A program made the position numbers and the translations under genes. From a virus, in IMG/VR virus record IMGVR_UViG_3300038701_001272, positions 1-37,974 of that record: 37,974 bases of DNA; one strand, 5' to 3'. Below, piece after piece: positions 2,163 to 37,974 of the stretch. The notes under the pieces are model-generated. The model made no database searches and was not told where the DNA came from. It saw only the letters and a list, made by a program, of their open reading frames with translations. Each line of letters begins with the position of its first letter. The first letter of the stretch is position 1.

Positions 2163-5100
2163 ATCAAAAAGACGCATATATATTAAAAGCACTGAGTCAG
2201 GTAACAGATGCTTTAGAACGGATAAACGCAGTGCCTACGGTAGAGCGTTACAAAATGATAGACACCATTGTTGACAAGATGGATATAGTTAAGGGTGAAC
2301 CTGGCGAAAAAGGCGAAAAGGGTGAACCGTTTAAATATTCAGATTTAACAGCAAATCAGAAGAAAAACTTTATAGAGGCAGTACTTAAAGAGGTCCCAAA
2401 ACCAAAAGACGGGGAAACACCTGTTAAAGGTGAGGACTATTACACACTTAAGGAAAAGGATGAATTATTCCAGGAATTAAAATCTCATTTAGACACCCTT
2501 GAACCTAAAGTAGTTAATAAAACTATAGAGAGGGGTATAACGAATAAGCAAAAAGAAGAAGTATACAACTACATATTTAAACAACTAGAGGATGCATTCC
2601 CTACAGCGGATACTTTAGCTAGGGCGCTTGAAGAGCTTCCTGAGTCTGAAAAATTAGATCCTATTAAGGGTTTGAAAAACTTTAAAGCGGCTGTAAGAAA
2701 AGTACAGAAAAAAGGCGGAAGTGCAATAGTTTCTCAAGGGTCTGGTAGCTCGACATTTACAGGTTTAACAGACACACCTTCATCATATTCAGGTGAAGGG
2801 GGTAAGGTACTAAAGGTAAAAGCGACTGAAGATGGTGTTGAGTTTGGGACTGTAAGTGGGACAGGGGATGTGGTAGGACCAGCGAGTGCTACAAATAACG
2901 CAGTAGCAAGGTTTGATACTACTACGGGGAAGCTTATTCAGAACAGTCCGGTAGTGATTGCAGACACTGGTACTATAAATCTAAATGGTACGGGTGATAT
3001 TAGAAACGGTATTGATGGCGATGTAACCTTACAAGTAAATGATGGTATAGGTACAGATGACGTACTAAAGGTTGTCGGAGCTACTAAAAAGGTTCAGCTT
3101 ACACAGGAAGGTAGTGCTGGATTTGTAAAGACTGATGCTAGTGGAAACTTAACAGGAGGCGAGACTATATCAGCTAGTGACGTAACTGACTTTGACACTG
3201 AGGTAAGTAATAACCCCAGTGTAACAGCTAATACAGCAAAGGTCACTAATGCAACGCACTCAGGTGATGCCAGTGGTGATACAACGCTCACACTAAACAG
3301 TACAGCGATTAGTGGGAAAGGTACTAATGCAGGGCTTGCAGGTACTGAAGAAGTTTTAATCAACAACGGAGGCACACTTGAGAAGACAACTACACAAGAT
3401 ATTGCTGATCTTGGAGGTGGAGGAGGTTCAACAACACTGCAAGATGCGTACGATAATAGTACGGACGGGAAAATAGATGAAGACGGCACACGGGGAAGTA
3501 TTGACCTAGTTCCAGCAAGTGCAAATAGTAATGTACTCACGGTGAGGGATAGTACAGATGTTCGTAATGTGATCACCATGTTTGAAAACTCAACTAATGG
3601 AGGACTTTTAAGTATTGCAAGGGGGGCCGGTGATACAGCTCATAACTTGGTAGGTGCTGGAAGTTCATATGTTTCTCGATTTGGTAATTTTGGTGTAGGT
3701 ACTAACGCACCACAGGTACAGTTAGATGTGAAGAATGGGGAAACGCAGTTGGCTCCACCGACAACAACATATCCAACGCTAAACCTTCCTTCGGGTAGTG
3801 ATCCAACAACACCCGGATCTGGTGATATGTGGTTCAATGGGACTAATTTAAATTTCAATGATGGAAGCACAACTACTGATTTATTAGCAGGAGGTGGAGG
3901 AGGTGCTCGAACCTTTACAAAAATAGTAGCTGCTAGTGATTCACTAGATGCTACAGGTGCTGATTATACTTGTGATGGAACAGATGATGAGGTTGAAATA
4001 CAAAGTGCAATAGATGCTGTAAACACCGCGGGTGGTGGGACAGTATTACTTCTTGATGGTAATTATGATATAGATACAACTTCTATAGTTTTAAAAAGTA
4101 ACGTAGTTCTAAAAGGGATGGGTATCGAAGCAACAGTGCTAAAAAAGAATGGTTCAGTGTCAATACTAGTAGCAGATTCGTCTAATACTAACTACGCTGG
4201 GGTGAGGAATTTGAAGTTTGATGGATTAAACTCAACGACAACAACACACTATGCTATAGAGGATACAGGGTCAGGAGCTTTCTATGATTGTACTTTTGAT
4301 ACTTTAAAGTTTGAAGATTTTAAGGCAAACACTGCAGGTATTTGTATGTATCTTCAAAAGAGCTTTAGGAATAGCGTATTAAACACAATTACAGAAGATT
4401 GCACTTCATTTGGTTTTTTTGATGATGAGACCTTAGTGCAAAATTTTAGACACAATACAAATACATCATCACCGCCGACAAGTACGAGTAATGCGAACGT
4501 GATTGTTTTATTTGGACCAAACTCAAGGATTGACAATGTATATATTAACGCAGACAACAACACAAGAAGTACAGGGTTGATCCAAGTTTCGGGGAGAGAA
4601 TGTATGGTTGGGAATGTATTTATTGATGGAACCAACGACACACCTTTGGCTATCGATATGAGCGGTCAGCATGGGCAATGCTATAACATTCATTTGGATA
4701 GTTGCTCTAAGTCCGGATTTGTAGGGGTAAGGCTGGATGAAAGTTACAACAGCTTGCATAACCTGTCTTTCAATGGATTGAACTCAACAAACAGTGTGGC
4801 ATTTGAGATTGATACGGGTGCGCAAAACTGTTTGGTCAATGGAGTTAGTGGGCAGACATGTGCCTATGTTGGACGTATAGATGCAAGTGCTGCTTACTAC
4901 AACATCTGTAACGTGAACGTGTTCGATTGCTTTGTTGGATTGTTTGACAAGGTGAAAATGTCTTCCAGTTTATTCGGGAATATTAGAAATGTGGGTGGTG
5001 GTAACAATGATCCAATGTTTTATGAAGAAGAACATTGTATGCAATATGAAAACGTATCAGGTGCTCAAATAGATGCAGGGATGATAGTAGTGATGAGTTG

Positions 5101-5416
5101 GGATAATAACGGAAACAACGTAACTACAACAACAACCGCTGGAAGTATAGATGCGATAGGGATTGCAGCGGAGAATATTTCTAATGGAGATGAACGGAAT
5201 ATAATCAAGGGTGGTGATGTATCAATAATGAAAGTAGATGGTACAGATGACATCGCTATTGGTGACTACCTAGGTACCTCTACCACAGCTGGAATTGCAA
5301 AGAAGGCGACATCTGGAGAATATGCGATTGCAGTTGCATTGGAAGCATATACAAACGATGACACCAACGGAGTAATAGACGCCCGTATTTTAAATAAACC
5401 AGTATATATAGCATGA
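2159..5416 (+). CDS. Large virion fibre/spike: collagen-like stretch, repeat stalk and parallel beta-helix
   Basis: I take the ATG at 2159, which overlaps the portal stop (ATGA), giving 1085 aa. Residues ~1-190 are charged and helical, with four collagen-like G-X-Y triplets at ~46-57. Then come Gly/Ser/Thr-rich segments of a kind common in fibre shafts. At ~590-900 there is a pectate-lyase-3-like beta-helix start (GTDDEVEIQSAID, then GGGTVLLLDGNYDI). The C-terminal ~125 residues form a beta-rich domain of GDVSIM and GDYLGTS type turns, reminiscent of capsid decoration proteins. Such proteins form trimeric fibres or tailspikes that bind or cut surface glycans. Its place between portal-MuF and the prohead protease is unusual and suggests a head or neck fibre, although an ordinary tailspike is possible. 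Confidence 0.75.
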   Translation: MNQKDAYILKALSQVTDALERINAVPTVERYKMIDTIVDKMDIVKGEPGEKGEKGEPFKYSDLTANQKKNFIEAVLKEVPKPKDGETPVKGEDYYTLKEKDELFQELKSHLDTLEPKVVNKTIERGITNKQKEEVYNYIFKQLEDAFPTADTLARALEELPESEKLDPIKGLKNFKAAVRKVQKKGGSAIVSQGSGSSTFTGLTDTPSSYSGEGGKVLKVKATEDGVEFGTVSGTGDVVGPASATNNAVARFDTTTGKLIQNSPVVIADTGTINLNGTGDIRNGIDGDVTLQVNDGIGTDDVLKVVGATKKVQLTQEGSAGFVKTDASGNLTGGETISASDVTDFDTEVSNNPSVTANTAKVTNATHSGDASGDTTLTLNSTAISGKGTNAGLAGTEEVLINNGGTLEKTTTQDIADLGGGGGSTTLQDAYDNSTDGKIDEDGTRGSIDLVPASANSNVLTVRDSTDVRNVITMFENSTNGGLLSIARGAGDTAHNLVGAGSSYVSRFGNFGVGTNAPQVQLDVKNGETQLAPPTTTYPTLNLPSGSDPTTPGSGDMWFNGTNLNFNDGSTTTDLLAGGGGGARTFTKIVAASDSLDATGADYTCDGTDDEVEIQSAIDAVNTAGGGTVLLLDGNYDIDTTSIVLKSNVVLKGMGIEATVLKKNGSVSILVADSSNTNYAGVRNLKFDGLNSTTTTHYAIEDTGSGAFYDCTFDTLKFEDFKANTAGICMYLQKSFRNSVLNTITEDCTSFGFFDDETLVQNFRHNTNTSSPPTSTSNANVIVLFGPNSRIDNVYINADNNTRSTGLIQVSGRECMVGNVFIDGTNDTPLAIDMSGQHGQCYNIHLDSCSKSGFVGVRLDESYNSLHNLSFNGLNSTNSVAFEIDTGAQNCLVNGVSGQTCAYVGRIDASAAYYNICNVNVFDCFVGLFDKVKMSSSLFGNIRNVGGGNNDPMFYEEEHCMQYENVSGAQIDAGMIVVMSWDNNGNNVTTTTTAGSIDAIGIAAENISNGDERNIIKGGDVSIMKVDGTDDIAIGDYLGTSTTAGIAKKATSGEYAIAVALEAYTNDDTNGVIDARILNKPVYIA

Positions 5417-5598
5417 ACGTAACTATTGTAGACAACAAAATAGAGATCACAGAAGAACAAAAAACTGAATACACACTTGAGGAGTTACAAATAATGAAAA
5501 TGAGACTTGAAACTAAAAGAAATGAATACGTAGCTCAGATTGATCAAGAAATAACCCAGGTGAATGAATGGATTAATCAAATAGAAGACTCAAATTAA
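5413..5598 (+). CDS. Small coiled-coil protein between fibre and protease (61 aa)
   Basis: The start overlaps the fibre stop by four bases (ATGA), so translation is probably coupled. After a short beta-like start (VTIVDNKIEIT) the rest is a charged heptad-like helix with E-E-L-Q-I-M-K-M-R-L spacing and no cysteine or membrane segment. Small helical proteins here can be fibre chaperones or minor head proteins; nothing identifies this one. Confidence 0.7.
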   Translation: MNVTIVDNKIEITEEQKTEYTLEELQIMKMRLETKRNEYVAQIDQEITQVNEWINQIEDSN

Positions 5599-21214: not shown

Positions 21215-21231
21215 TAATAAAAAGTATTATT
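21215..21231 (-). repeat. Family A leader element, copy 1
   Basis: Minus strand AATAATACTTTTTATTA ahead of the gene starting at 21206. Other copies: 21754-21770, 26541-26557, 28775-28790, a shorter one at 30861-30874, and an orphan at 31772-31787. Lies 9-25 bases before the ATG, where a ribosome or S1-type U-rich contact would be. Confidence 0.7.
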
Positions 21232-21745
21232 TAACTCGTTTGTAAAGTACACCGTCAAGGGTAATGGTGTCCTTGGTGTCTTTAAACACACTCAAGTCTA
21301 CATACTGTAATGCATACCCATCCTGTCTAATCGCCTCGAGACAGATCTCAGGAGTCTGATTGTGTACATACTTTAATAGAGACCCATTCTGTCTAACCGC
21401 CTCGAGACAGATCTCAGGAGTCTGATTGTCTACATACTGTAATGCATACCCATTCTGTCTAATCGCCTCGAGACAGATCTCAGGAGTCTGATTGTGTACA
21501 TACTGTAATAGAGACCCATTCGGTCTAACCGCCTCGAGACAGATCTCAGGAGTCTGATTGTGTACATACTTTAATGCATACCCATCCTGTCTAACTGCTT
21601 CGAGACAGATCTCAGGAGTCTGATTGTGTACATACTGTAATGCATACCCATCCTGTCTAACTGCTTTGAGTGCGTCTTCGCCTTCATAGAATATTATATC
21701 TGACTCTTTGGTGCCTGTTTTCTCAAAGAATTCTGCTTTTGTCAT
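21227..21745 (-). CDS. DUF4116-type repeat protein
   Basis: 172 aa. A 22-residue unit (EAVRQDGYALKYVHNQTPEI, then CL) occurs about six times, alternating RQDGYALQ and RQNGSLLK forms, between a short N-terminal region and a ...VFKDTKDTITLDGVLYKRVK end. The pattern 'avrqnG.aLqyv..qtpEicleAv' is the DUF4116 repeat, an alpha-helical solenoid of unknown role. The copies are almost identical in DNA, so the array grew recently or is kept alike by recombination. A family A leader precedes the start. Confidence 0.85.
   Translation of the reverse strand: MTKAEFFEKTGTKESDIIFYEGEDALKAVRQDGYALQYVHNQTPEICLEAVRQDGYALKYVHNQTPEICLEAVRPNGSLLQYVHNQTPEICLEAIRQNGYALQYVDNQTPEICLEAVRQNGSLLKYVHNQTPEICLEAIRQDGYALQYVDLSVFKDTKDTITLDGVLYKRVK
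21290..21680 (-). repeat. 66-bp direct repeats coding the DUF4116 units
   Basis: The segment containing GAGACAGATCTCAGGAG recurs every 66 bp (for example 21338 and 21404). Differences are confined to a few codons. These are coding repeats and not a CRISPR array: there are no unique spacers. Confidence 0.9.
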
Positions 21746-25178: not shown

Positions 25179-25406
25179 TTATCCTTCGAATCTACCATCT
25201 CTAAATACCTGAGCCTTTATAAGTTGCAACATAGTTGTCTTTTCCTGAGGGCTAATCTCACCCCTCAAAGCCATCTTCTCTACTTCAAAGTTTTTCATCT
25301 GCAAAAAAGTCGCATCTATCTCAGCTTCTATTTGCACCTGAGTCATACCACTCGTGTCATGTTGCCTGTCTGTCGAATACTCTGAATTGTCTATATAGCT
25401 AGTCAT
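25179..25406 (-). CDS. Unknown small protein (75 aa)
   Basis: The ATG overlaps the stop of the Gly-X repeat gene (ATGA), so the two are probably co-translated. A polar N-terminus is followed by helices (TQVQIEAEIDATFLQMKNFE, then SPQEKTTMLQLIKAQVF). No family recognised. Confidence 0.6.
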   Translation of the reverse strand: MTSYIDNSEYSTDRQHDTSGMTQVQIEAEIDATFLQMKNFEVEKMALRGEISPQEKTTMLQLIKAQVFRDGRFEG

Positions 25407-25651
25407 ATATGTTTAATAATAAAGTCATACTGGTTAGCCTCATCTCCAGATCCATATCCATATCCATATCCATCTCCAGATCCATATCCAGATCCATATC
25501 CAAATCCAGATCCATCTCCAAATCCATATCCATATCCAGATCCATATCCATATCCAGATCCATCTCCAAATCCATATCCATATCCAAATCCATATCCATA
25601 TCCAGATCCATCTCCAGATCCAGATCCATCTGGGGTTATTAAGCTTGCCAT
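25403..25651 (-). CDS. Gly-X repeat protein (82 aa) encoded by hexanucleotide repeats
   Basis: Starts MASLITPDGSGSGDGSGYGY; about 60 residues follow a G-[YSFD] alternation, and the protein ends DEANQYDFIIKHI. All three minus frames are open here, but only this one has a start at the end of the DUF6948-like gene (13-bp overlap) and a stop coupled to the next ATG. Such Tyr/Ser/Gly sequences are disordered and may form condensates or fibres. In my recollection similar proteins lie beside DUF6948 genes in other phages; I cannot search for this here. Confidence 0.65.
   Translation of the reverse strand: MASLITPDGSGSGDGSGYGYGFGYGYGFGDGSGYGYGSGYGYGFGDGSGFGYGSGYGSGDGYGYGYGSGDEANQYDFIIKHI
25441..25630. 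repeat. Imperfect hexanucleotide tandem repeat (about 31 units)
   Basis: Plus strand units are CCATAT, CCAGAT, CCATCT or CCAAAT. The length is a multiple of six throughout, so slippage by one unit adds or removes one Gly-X pair without shifting the frame. Good candidate for copy-number variation. Confidence 0.9.
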
Positions 25652-26004
25652 ATAGGTACGTCTTTAATAGATAGTCGTGCTTTCTCAGTTGCATCTAATA
25701 TTTCTATAACACCTCGGATTTCCGCATTAACTTCAGCAGGAAACTTACACTCCGACGGTTTTGACACGCCATCAATAGCAATCTGTGAGATTGAAGCTGC
25801 ACCTTCCCAGTACCACAGACGCCTACATTGTATTAGTTGTACAGTGTCGCCTTCTTGTTTTTTTAAATATCCTGCAAAAACTCCTGCACGATCGGCTCGT
25901 ACAATCACATACTTCATCCCCTCATGTTCTTGTGCGTATACATTGCCTTGAGATTCATTATTCACTTCGGACTCTTTGACGTATCTCTCTCCGTTGATTT
26001 CCAT
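25639..26004 (-). CDS. DUF6948-like protein (121 aa)
   Basis: The core MKYVIVRADRAGVFAGYLKK, then RRLWYWEGAASISQIAIDGV, then KPSECKFP and VIEILDATEKA, matches my memory of the DUF6948 family ('yvivRt.sAGVfaG...RRlWyWsGAaslsqlA..G...p..CKFp...v.ei.e..ekA'). Function is unknown. Mixed alpha/beta, soluble. It is followed directly by the Gly-X repeat gene. Confidence 0.75.
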   Translation of the reverse strand: MEINGERYVKESEVNNESQGNVYAQEHEGMKYVIVRADRAGVFAGYLKKQEGDTVQLIQCRRLWYWEGAASISQIAIDGVSKPSECKFPAEVNAEIRGVIEILDATEKARLSIKDVPIWQA

Positions 26005-30890: not shown

Positions 30891-31592
30891 TTAACGCATC
30901 TCTTTTGCTTTTTTAATCTCGATATCTCGTAATCTTTCGAACTCTTCTCGGAACGCAACCTTGTCGATTCTGCCAGCTTCAGCATCTTTGATTAACCAGT
31001 TTCGGATGGTTGCGGTTATATCCTTCACAACTTTCCCTTTGGATTGTGACCAGCTTAAAACTTTTTCTTCATATTTTTCAATCAACGCATTTGTGATTCT
31101 AAACCCAAAAAGATTCTTGCTGTTTAGAATGGTTTCGTAATTTATTTTTTTTGCGCGTGTGTTGCTTTTTTTGTTCTCTCTCTCCTTACCTAACCTAACC
31201 TTACCTAACCTAACCTGCGTATCCGGCTTGGATACATTCTGTATACATGCTGTATCCAAAGCGTAGATCCCTCCTGCTGTCTGTGTTATCAAAGCCTTCT
31301 CTTTTTTGTGGAAAGTCTCACGGTAACGATCGCTCTGGATGTAGTTGTTTTGTTTCCAATGAGTGATAACTAGCACCCCTTTTTCGAAAAGAATTACGAA
31401 ATTTTTTGCTACTAGAATTTTTAAATCATCCTCTTTAAAGTCTCCTAATTTGATAATTCTTTTTGGAGAAACAAAGCCGTCATCGTCGGCATACATCCCG
31501 AGGTAAAAATAAAGTAATTGCGCAGTGTGGGGCATGTCGTAGAAGTCATCAAGTTCTATGATGTCTTTACTAAACATTCTCCTGTTTGCCAT
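30891..31592 (-). CDS. Replisome organizer / DnaD-like replication initiator
   Basis: 233 aa. The N-terminal ~100 residues (RRMFSKDIIELDDFYDMPHT, then LLYFYLGMYADDDGFVSPKR) are the winged-helix start of phage replisome organizers. A low-complexity linker holds VRLGKVRLGKERENKK, coded by tandem DNA repeats, and a basic C-terminal domain follows (KINYETILNSKN; ITATIRNWLIKDAEAGRIDK). It should bind origin repeats and load the helicase encoded next. First gene of the leftward block. Confidence 0.88.
   Translation of the reverse strand: MANRRMFSKDIIELDDFYDMPHTAQLLYFYLGMYADDDGFVSPKRIIKLGDFKEDDLKILVAKNFVILFEKGVLVITHWKQNNYIQSDRYRETFHKKEKALITQTAGGIYALDTACIQNVSKPDTQVRLGKVRLGKERENKKSNTRAKKINYETILNSKNLFGFRITNALIEKYEEKVLSWSQSKGKVVKDITATIRNWLIKDAEAGRIDKVAFREEFERLRDIEIKKAKEMR
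31145..31259. other. Candidate replication origin inside the initiator gene
   Basis: Two perfect 15-bp repeats (CCTTACCTAACCTAA at 31184-31198 and 31199-31213) lie beside a T-rich stretch (about 31145-31183) that could melt. A dyad, TTGGATACA (31228-31236) with TGTATCCAA (31251-31259), centred on GTATAC, is 15 bp further on. Lambdoid phages also keep origin iterons within the initiator gene. Inferred, not proven. Confidence 0.6.
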
Positions 31593-31610
31593 AACTCACC
31601 GATAATAATT

Positions 31611-31686
31611 AATATACACACACAGGAGGGCATCTGTAGAAGTACCGGTGAGTATTTCAGAGTACCCTCCCATGTATGTGTATTAG
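31611..31686 (-). promoter_or_regulatory. Large imperfect inverted repeat in the early leader
   Basis: On the minus strand an arm with ATACACATACATGGGAGGG (31684-31666) pairs with CCCTCCTGTGTGTGTAT (31630-31614): 17 pairs, one G-T, one 2-base bulge. GGTGAGTTA/GGTGAGTA elements occur at 31592-31600, 31647-31654 and 31691-31699. It may be an operator array or a leader hairpin that controls the initiator gene. Confidence 0.55.
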
Positions 31687-31707
31687 AAATTAACTCACCT
31701 ACGTCAA
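31680..31707 (-). promoter_or_regulatory. Leftward early promoter candidate for the replication genes
   Basis: Minus strand TTGACG (31707-31702), 16 bp, TAATAC (31685-31680). No shared operator with P1-P3. The -10 box lies at the edge of the inverted repeat, so a bound protein there could block initiation. Confidence 0.55.
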
Positions 31708-31771
31708 AATATACTAAAAGCATGACGATATCAAATGGAATCTTTTCGTGATAAAATAACGTGCTACACAG

Positions 31772-31787
31772 TAGTAAAAAGTATTGC
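31772..31787 (-). repeat. Family A element, orphan copy
   Basis: Minus strand GCAATACTTTTTACTA with no start codon close behind it; the nearest gene begins about 180 bases on. It may mark a lost gene or a transcript start. Confidence 0.5.
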
Positions 31788-31789
31788 AG

Positions 31790-31811
31790 AACCCACTTTA
31801 ATCGGTGGGTT
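31790..31811. terminator. Terminator-like hairpin, possibly bidirectional
   Basis: AACCCAC (31790-31796) pairs with GTGGGTT (31805-31811) around an 8-nt loop. The A-rich flank on the left and short T-run on the right fit a weak two-way terminator isolating the divergent halves. Confidence 0.55.
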
Positions 31812-31875
31812 TTGTGCTGTATACTGGTATAAGACTTCTGGTTCAAATGATCGTGCATGATCTAGCGAACAGAGT

Positions 31876-31903
31876 AAAGCCTCGTTTGATCGGGGCTTTT
31901 TTT
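31876..31903 (+). terminator. Rho-independent terminator on the plus strand
   Basis: AAAGCCTCG pairs with CGGGGCTTT (nine pairs, one G-T) around TTTGAT, with T-run 31897-31903. No plus-strand gene ends here. It may close a short RNA started from TGGTATAAG (31825-31833) or block transcription around the circle. Confidence 0.8.
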
Positions 31904-31908
31904 ATAAT

Positions 31909-32092
31909 GCCGGGGCTAGTGACTAGACGGAGATATCGTTGGGTTAGCTACCAATTGAGCTGCATATGGGAACACTTCGATAAGCCATTGACAGGAGGAC
32001 TACCACCGAAAACGGTCATCCTAGGAGCGTAGTAGGGTTAGGGGGTCATGAGCGTAATATCGAGAATGTGGGTTCGAATCCCACGCCCCGGC
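31909..32092 (+). ncRNA. tRNA-like RNA of about 184 nt (acceptor stem and T-arm with a long insert)
   Basis: GCCGGGGC (31909-31916) pairs perfectly with GCCCCGGC (32085-32092). Immediately inside the 3' strand is a perfect T-arm: GTGGG, TTCGAAT, CCCAC (32068-32084). The 5' strand is followed by TAGTGACTAGACGGAG, which is faintly like the D-region of tmRNA (GACGG). No normal D or anticodon arm fits, and the ~150-nt interior folds into other small stems (ACCG-AAAA-CGGT at about 32007-32018). Options: a tRNA carrying an intron, a very reduced tmRNA-like RNA, or a decayed tRNA. The acceptor and T-arm are seen; the class is not settled. Confidence 0.5.
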
Positions 32093-32099
32093 CCGTATT

Positions 32100-32108
32100 T
32101 GGTATAAT
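32100..32108 (+). promoter_or_regulatory. Extended -10 promoter candidate ahead of tRNA-Gln
   Basis: TGGTATAAT is a perfect extended -10 (TGnTATAAT). No -35 is recognisable. It could start the tRNA-Gln transcript and the glycosyltransferase operon. Confidence 0.5.
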
Positions 32109-32155
32109 TACACAGCAGAGTTAGACTCTCCTGTAGGTTCCGAAGCTGCAGGTGA

Positions 32156-32226
32156 TACGGGGTCGTCTAATGGTAGGACGGTAGTTTTTGGAGCTACCAA
32201 TCGAGGTTCGAATCCTTGTCCCGTAA
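32156..32226 (+). tRNA. tRNA-Gln (anticodon TTG)
   Basis: Acceptor TACGGGG (32156-32162) pairs with TCCCGTA (32219-32225), with a G-T at the last pair. D-arm GTCTAATGGTAGGAC is typical for Gln. Anticodon arm GTAGT-TTTTGGA-GCTAC reads TTG at positions 34-36. T-arm is CGAGG-TTCGAAT-CCTTG. A is the discriminator base and CCA is not encoded. It may support decoding of the phage's CAA codons. Confidence 0.93.
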
Positions 32227-37669: not shown

Positions 37670-37974
37670 ATGGGATTATTTGACATCTTCCGTAAGGGCG
37701 CTACTTCTTCGATCCATACAAAGGATCCAGGGTTTGTAGTGACCAACTTTACAAGGAACACGACGTTCCAAGGATTAATAGAGAGCAGAGACCAAGACAA
37801 CTTCTTCGACCAATATATTTTATACGTCTATAAGTGCATAGATTTAATATCTAACACGGTAGCTTCACAAGATATCACGCTTGTAAGTGTTGCAGATGAA
37901 AATGTACAAATAGATCATGATATATCAAAAGACCTGAGTCACTTTAATAACTACATGAATTTGTGGGAAGCGCC
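37670..37974 (+). CDS. Portal-MuF fusion protein, N-terminal part
   Basis: The true ATG of the portal gene is at 37670 (MGLFDIFRKGATSSIHTKDP). The frame runs to the window end and is continued at base 3 of the window. The 95 residues lost from the left-end reading are here (QYILYVYKCIDLISNTVASQ). Spacing to terL is 39 bases. The last two bases differ from the left copy and are probably an edge error. Confidence 0.92.
   Translation, partial: MGLFDIFRKGATSSIHTKDPGFVVTNFTRNTTFQGLIESRDQDNFFDQYILYVYKCIDLISNTVASQDITLVSVADENVQIDHDISKDLSHFNNYMNLWEA
37849..37972. repeat. Right copy of the 124-bp terminal redundancy
   Basis: Identical to 2-125. See the left copy. Confidence 0.95.

Follow-up and report, generated by a model that had tools for sequence, protein, structure and literature searches.

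What is the 184-nt stretch at positions 31909-32092 of this viral DNA, whose two ends resemble those of a tRNA and whose middle does not? The window, that is, the whole stretch of 37,974 nt analysed here (IMG/VR record IMGVR_UViG_3300038701_001272), represents a whole phage genome, which is probably complete since it carries a 124-bp direct terminal repeat (positions 2-125 and 37849-37972). Pfam or PHROGs matches among the scanned ORFs include portal, prohead protease, major capsid, tape measure, amidase and TerL proteins, as well as a Prim-Pol/DnaB-like helicase, a DnaD-like loader, an Erf-like annealing protein and glycosyltransferases; neither an integrase (Pfam or PHROGs) nor SmpB was matched among these ORFs. 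The minus-strand genes close the left arm at 31592 and the rightward genes run from 32289. The 184-nt stretch shares the 0.7-kb gap between them with an ordinary tRNA-Gln (TTG; 32156-32226, plus strand), which is recognised by both ARAGORN and Rfam, has no encoded CCA and is by sequence the nearest tRNA to the 184-nt RNA. The two are 63 nt apart. On the other side, a terminator-like hairpin with a T-run (31876-31899, plus strand) ends 9 nt 5′ of the RNA. The position next to a true tRNA-Gln and after a terminator, as given in the initial annotation of this locus, was thus confirmed. The 5′ leader of tRNA-Gln would consist of two neighbouring hairpins, AGAGT/ACTCT and CCTGTAG/CTGCAGG, which lie between it and the RNA at 32117-32152; their stability is not significant (z = -0.84). 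Elsewhere the window contains two strong tandem repeats: 66-bp units at 21230-21736, in a small leftward gene whose protein matches DUF4116, and 6-bp units of the TCCATA/TCCAGA type at 25403-25665, in a leftward region of short ORFs.

At its two ends the 184-nt stretch carries an 8-bp stem and a 5-bp T-arm, both perfectly paired. The 5′ strand of the closing, acceptor-like stem, GCCGGGGC (31909-31916, plus strand), pairs perfectly with GCCCCGGC (32085-32092, plus strand), which is followed by CCG; no CCA is encoded. A 7-bp tRNA acceptor may begin at either 31909 or 31910, and the start at 31910 leaves U8-A9. The T-arm, GTGGG-TTCGAAT-CCCAC (32068-32084, plus strand), has five Watson-Crick pairs and a TTCRANY loop, so that the combination expected of a tRNA, a 7-8-bp acceptor stem plus a T-arm with this loop, is present. 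When a perfect T-arm was defined as a TTCRANY loop with five Watson-Crick pairs, and its acceptor partner as 7 nt lying 60-400 nt upstream, this T-arm was the only perfect one on both strands of the 38 kb, and the combination of T-arm and acceptor was expected 0.0033 times, or once in 300, in random 38-kb sequences of the same dinucleotide make-up. Among 20,000 shuffles of the intergenic region 31593-32155 (563 bp), a T-arm appeared in 8 and a T-arm with an acceptor in none. Both elements are contained in the minimum free energy (MFE) fold, with pair probabilities of 0.98-1.0 for the acceptor and 0.87 for the T-arm. Chance alone would hardly produce such tRNA-like ends, and the earlier remark that a perfect 8-bp stem and a TTCGAAT T-arm about 150 nt apart are unlikely to be accidental is borne out by both calculations.

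The GC content points in the same direction. It reaches 53.3% over the 184 nt, the 99.98th percentile of all genome windows, against 38.6% for the genome, and it is 37.5% in the upstream intergenic DNA; such a peak is what an RNA gene would show against an AT-rich background. It is improbable that two GC-rich stretches merely happen to pair beside a chance T-arm, with no RNA gene at all. Such an accident would be consistent with the occurrence of CGGGGCT in the upstream terminator as well, with the lack of relatives described below and with an overall fold that is not stable, but it is at odds with the GC peak, with the empty set of intergenic shuffles and with the genome-wide expectation, which holds even with the place freely chosen. 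The 184-nt stretch is probably a real RNA gene. The reading that we prefer, though tentatively, is that of a non-decoding phage RNA in which an acceptor stem is stacked on a T-arm and the remaining 151 nt are without decoding arms.

No clear D-arm, and no clear anticodon arm with a 7-nt loop, was found in the middle of the RNA; weak versions of both can be drawn only when about 108 nt are removed, and with this qualification the original description of an interior lacking the two arms stands. Here ARAGORN and Rfam, at gathering scores, find only tRNA-Gln and nothing for the 184-nt RNA. Below the gathering cut-off, no RF00005 match is listed for the stretch even at E = 10, where one Rfam listing excluded two lower-scoring overlapping matches of the same clan. 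The whole 184-nt fold is of ordinary stability (z = -0.81 against shuffles). The roughly 108 nt without tRNA counterpart (31960-32067, plus strand) have a GC content of 49.1% (97.6th genome percentile) and no stable fold, the segment 31957-32067 being less stable than average (z = +1.41). Straight after the acceptor strand, an extended arm of 13 bp, several of them G-U, is possible at 31917-31950 (plus strand) and is weak (z = -1.55). A candidate antisense D-arm on the minus strand, CTCAATTGGTAGCT, was rejected: the best minus-strand tRNA score was reached by 5 of 60 shuffles.

Could the middle be restored by splicing? The initial annotation had suggested a tRNA with an unusual intron. Every possible single cut leaving 72-91 nt was scored with ARAGORN and compared with 25 shuffled middles. 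The best deletion scored 106.5 and was equalled or beaten by 2 of the 25 shuffles; the true tRNA-Gln scores 117.9. In the same test, 8 of 12 long tRNA-like genes of other phages scored 111.9-127.0, a level reached by none of 25 shuffles. ARAGORN is lenient on joined pieces, and shuffled middles frequently pass. No group I intron was matched by Rfam in the 184-nt RNA, and exons could not be restored; about 108 nt is also short for a group I intron. In these tests the suggested intron does not yield a convincing tRNA, and a tRNA spliced to a working form by an unknown route is an unlikely explanation. It could appeal to phage tRNAs with inserts of 42-113 nt at unusual places (contigs L103, L084, L020 and L242, see below) and to a cut after position 47-49 and before 157-158, which creates a 5-bp anticodon stem, GTTGG/CCAAT. 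However, the loop so formed counts 8 nt, G-U pairs make up most of the D-stem, no structure is seen in the extra stretch, and both the shuffled middles and the missing group I match speak against it.

The same annotation had also considered a minimal tmRNA-like molecule, because a GACGG stretch follows the 5′ strand. The motif is indeed present (31926-31930, plus strand); the best local alignment places it opposite GGACGG of tRNA-Gln, although 31917-31945 by itself shows no significant likeness to that gene. The tmRNA family is marked by G3-U70 and UUCGAC. Compared with two phage tmRNAs of ordinary type (L037, 281 nt, and L052, 301 nt), the 184-nt RNA lacks G3-U70, UUCGAC and the GGAC before the T-stem, and its D-loop motif is ACUAGACGG, as against GUUUCGAC-GG. 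The annotation had called for a covariance-model scan for tmRNA, group I intron and tRNA; once run, it gave no match to the latter two, and RF00023 matched the T-arm only, with 14.3 and 11.5 bits compared with the 47 needed. RF04321 gave no listed match, and ARAGORN found no tmRNA at the stretch, even in its relaxed setting. By eye, no tag frame with a hydrophobic peptide end is convincing within the 184 nt, in line with the earlier failure to see a clear alanine-rich tag with a stop. A P2-like pairing of 5+4 bp, with GATAT (31932-31936) opposite ATATC (32057-32061), can be written, but its ensemble probability is 0 and it is 4.5 kcal/mol worse than the MFE. Judged by the sequence features tested, the RNA is not a tmRNA. 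For the third suggestion of the annotation, a packaging or priming tRNA mimic, nothing came up that would favour or oppose it, and no sign of a Y RNA was seen.

A tag-less or minimal tmRNA whose tRNA-like domain sequesters the SmpB of the host, and so prevents the rescue of ribosomes, would have a precedent in the available parts of PMC4131195 and PMC11915505. According to the former, the tmRNA of mycobacteriophage DS6A is 'TLD only', little more than a tRNA-like domain, and a molecule similar to it strongly inhibits tmRNA, for which titration of SmpB is suggested. The acceptor, a GACGG in the place of the D-loop, the T-arm, the missing anticodon arm and the drawable P2-like pairing would all be consistent with such a molecule. 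We consider it improbable here, given the absent tmRNA marks, the zero probability of P2, the restriction of RF00023 to the T-arm at scores far below its threshold and the lack of SmpB among the scanned ORFs.

Searches of IMG/VR, of phage records and of 84,980 genomes gave no relative of the 184-nt RNA. An exact 25-mer had no match in viral contigs. Two genome scans were likewise empty, one of them showing that the 25-mer made up of T-arm and acceptor strand is in none of the 84,980 genomes. A blastn search with 196 nt hit 397 phage records; the 40 matches listed were short and nearly all on the T-arm. The pattern TAGACGG plus T-loop occurs in at least 119 stretches of viral contigs and, among the matches listed, only the phage's own record has a perfectly paired acceptor at that position. 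The pattern TTCGACGG plus T-loop gave 97 stretches and no tmRNA of 150-190 nt with the usual acceptor; two of them, in L299 and L242, have paired ends but look like tRNA pieces. Single-protein searches of viral contigs gave four relatives by the DnaD-like loader and none by the glycosyltransferase, TerL or the major capsid protein, and none of 80 loci collected with a TerL profile carries the 184-nt RNA. These searches also bear on whether the stretch is a phage attachment site (attP) carrying the 3′ end of a host tRNA gene. The cores of attP sites often match the 3′ ends of tRNA genes. Such a site is nonetheless very improbable: the 25-mer is in none of the genomes, although the host may be absent from the set, the 5′ partner strand would be unexplained, and no integrase was seen among the scanned ORFs.

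Comparable arrangements do occur in other phages. We surveyed 2.92 Mb of fetched loci, in which ARAGORN recognises 1,481 tRNA or tmRNA genes of the ordinary kind. The survey sought T-arms with an adjoining acceptor strand that has its partner 62-170 nt further upstream, counted from the T-arm; ordinary genes were passed over, as were three loci belonging to the window's own record. The survey gave 48 candidates, compared with 1, 0, 1, 3, 4 and 1 in six shuffles; under strict Watson-Crick pairing there were 15, compared with 0 in all six. The loci were picked by T-arm patterns or phage proteins and are biased to tRNA-rich DNA, so the 48 do not represent a frequency; some entries have their 3′ end in common, and the same gene recurs in some contigs. 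Some of the 48 could simply be wrecked tRNAs, or tRNA pieces lying one inside another. After one deletion, 16 become good tRNAs, with no more than 1 of 30 shuffles doing equally well; another is doubtful, being equalled by 2 of 30, and 31 remain under the score threshold of 112. The 184-nt RNA belongs with these 31.

Several genes of other phages were also recorded. In L103 (plus strand, 5079-5197, about 5265-5385 and 5393-5519), L084 (3627-3745) and L020 (444-559, the latter two numbered on the reverse-complement strand), phage tRNA genes carry inserts of 42-54 nt that interrupt the anticodon stem on its 5′ strand. When the insert is taken out of L103 5393-5519, a stem with a 7-nt loop is restored and a tRNA-Lys results (CTT; ARAGORN 127); in others the stem is nearly restored, as judged by eye. 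The three contigs have in common an insert core of about CTTCTG..GGAA..CAGCA, and a model of four inserts detects another copy in L103 (E = 0.003). With no more than 3 base pairs, this covariance model (R1) works essentially on sequence. The inserts may form a family, either of short introns or of mobile elements, and some copies could be read as short ORFs beginning with ATGGCTTCTG. On the reverse strand of L242, a 203-kb phage contig, a 187-nt tRNA-like gene (822-1008) with a perfect 7-bp acceptor lies directly before a tRNA-Leu and has about 110 nt inserted in its D-loop (GCTCAGCGGTT...AGAGC). The insert of a tRNA-like gene in L008 (5995-6146, plus strand) holds a small acceptor and T-arm unit of its own (GCGGTGT...ACACCGC with GCAAG-TTCGAAT-CTTGC), one tRNA-like element thus lying inside another. 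L103, a 373-kb phage contig, also encodes a permuted tmRNA (2464-2805, plus strand; RF04321 52 bits; ARAGORN tag GNTNYRYAMAA). Finally, L131, a human-gut phage record whose tape measure protein resembles that of the window (35.6% across 36% of its length), encodes a tRNA of 108 nt (4855-4962, plus strand; RF00005 47.1 bits), enlarged in the middle and missed by ARAGORN.

Does the 184-nt RNA descend from a tRNA? The segment 31909-31959 aligns in order with positions 3-50 of tRNA-Gln (score 34, p = 0.0002 by shuffling). It is the best place in the whole genome for tRNA-Gln, and tRNA-Gln ranks first for it when compared with 1,222 other phage tRNAs. The likeness rests mainly on a 14-mer, AGCTACCAATTGAG (31946-31959, plus strand), which agrees at 13 of 14 positions with 32192-32205 of tRNA-Gln, where the 3′ strand of the anticodon stem and the variable region lie; the part without acceptor and 14-mer (31917-31945) shows no similarity to tRNA-Gln (p = 0.9). 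The T-loop 11-mer GGTTCGAATCC is common to both genes (11/11). When 300 of the 1,222 phage tRNAs were sampled, the score of 31909-31959 was reached by 82 of 100 shuffles; that of the extra stretch of about 108 nt was reached by 60 of 60, and against tRNA-Gln this stretch gave p = 0.29. Together, these comparisons are only a hint of tRNA ancestry. By our count, two acceptor pairs and three T-stem pairs differ from tRNA-Gln on both sides and are still paired which, if the RNA is related to tRNA-Gln, would argue for selection on the ends. A fusion of tandem tRNAs was rejected: the later part without the T-arm is unlike both tRNA-Gln and the 5′ part (p = 0.2-0.45), while the same comparison with the T-arm included gives p = 0.016.

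Close behind the preferred reading comes a possible decay, in which a copy of tRNA-Gln or of another tRNA was interrupted by about 108 nt and has no RNA function. It may be supposed, with the same reserve, that the insertion took place just 5′ of the T-arm, following either the anticodon arm or the variable loop, and that the D- and anticodon arms then drifted. The ordered alignment and the common T-loop are in accord with this; removal of about 108 nt leaves 73-77 nt, the size of a tRNA, from which a weak cloverleaf can be drawn, and a third of the long candidates in other phages (16/48) are good tRNAs after one deletion. On the other hand, most of the similarity lies in one 14-mer, the insert resembles neither tRNA-Gln nor other tRNAs, and decay would be expected at the ends too, yet the ends are perfect. 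The high GC content of the 184 nt, shared even by the extra 108 nt, is unlike neutral decay.

If the RNA is instead a non-decoding, tRNA-ended molecule, as we prefer, it probably arose from a tRNA gene. The acceptor-T-arm unit is the minimal substrate of tRNA-processing enzymes. From this unit, and from a neighbouring tRNA that likewise lacks CCA, we infer that host RNase P would cut the 5′ end at 31909/31910 and that the 3′ end would be trimmed and CCA-tailed as in tRNA-Gln. The source would be a longer late transcript, or read-through past the upstream terminator; the product would be a stable RNA of about 184 nt, unable to enter the ribosome as a decoder, which may act through its body or compete for tRNA-binding host factors. 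Expression is the weakest step of the proposal, because the hairpin lies 9 nt upstream and the promoter scan lists nothing near: its only plus-strand site is about 290 nt upstream, with the hairpin standing between. By eye, a TATAAT can be read at 31903-31908, immediately before the 5′ end, and TGGTATAAT at 32100-32108, beyond the 3′ end; neither is listed by the scan. The perfect ends with a non-tRNA-like middle, the GC peak and the 48 comparable candidates support the proposal; the lack of relatives and the folding z scores of the whole RNA and the extra stretch count against it.

More speculatively, the 184-nt RNA could be one member of a scattered class of phage RNAs that use the acceptor-T-arm unit as a module for maturation, stability and decoy. 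Equally conjecturally, members would have non-decoding bodies of 60-150 nt, be processed by RNase P and act on host translation or the tRNA-handling machinery. Gene finders seek the whole cloverleaf, and thus RNAs with tRNA ends only would stay invisible to them. Literature searches limited to open-licence PMC papers brought up no description of long middle-less tRNA-like RNAs of phages, and the available part of PMC7609411, on unusual tRNAs, does not mention 'phage'. If some of the candidates are functional, phages have non-decoding tRNA mimics, possible competitors for RNase P, the CCA-adding enzyme, EF-Tu or SmpB, with the tmRNA domain of DS6A as a precedent. Should they be interrupted tRNAs, one would have to ask by what route phages splice them.

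Among known systems, the canonical tRNA (RF00005), including tRNA-Gln, resembles the 184-nt RNA in the order of acceptor and T-arm, in the spacing of the 3′ end and in a CCA that is not encoded; tRNA-Gln, however, has about 73 nt rather than 184, and the RNA has no recognisable D-arm or anticodon arm and no Rfam or ARAGORN match. The long tRNA-like genes of IMG/VR (L242, 187 nt; L103, L084, L020 and L008) likewise combine an acceptor with a T-arm, measure 114-187 nt, lie beside ordinary tRNAs and are missed by ARAGORN; unlike the 184-nt RNA they have recognisable exons and a definable insert, and no sequence homology to it was seen. With tmRNA (RF00023) and its DS6A form, the RNA shares a phage origin, tRNA-like ends, a missing anticodon arm and GACGG in the place of the D-loop; it differs from tmRNA in the absence of G3-U70, UUCGAC, GGAC, a credible P2 and an alanine-rich tag, and it is longer than the DS6A form, from which it is set apart by the description in the available part of PMC4131195. 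Finally, the pseudo-tRNA tRNA-Other of Bacillus cereus, as described in the available part of PMC3399842, is a bacterial gene beside a genomic island; it can be likened to the 184-nt RNA by description only, as a tRNA-like gene that is non-functional in translation and nevertheless has a phenotype.
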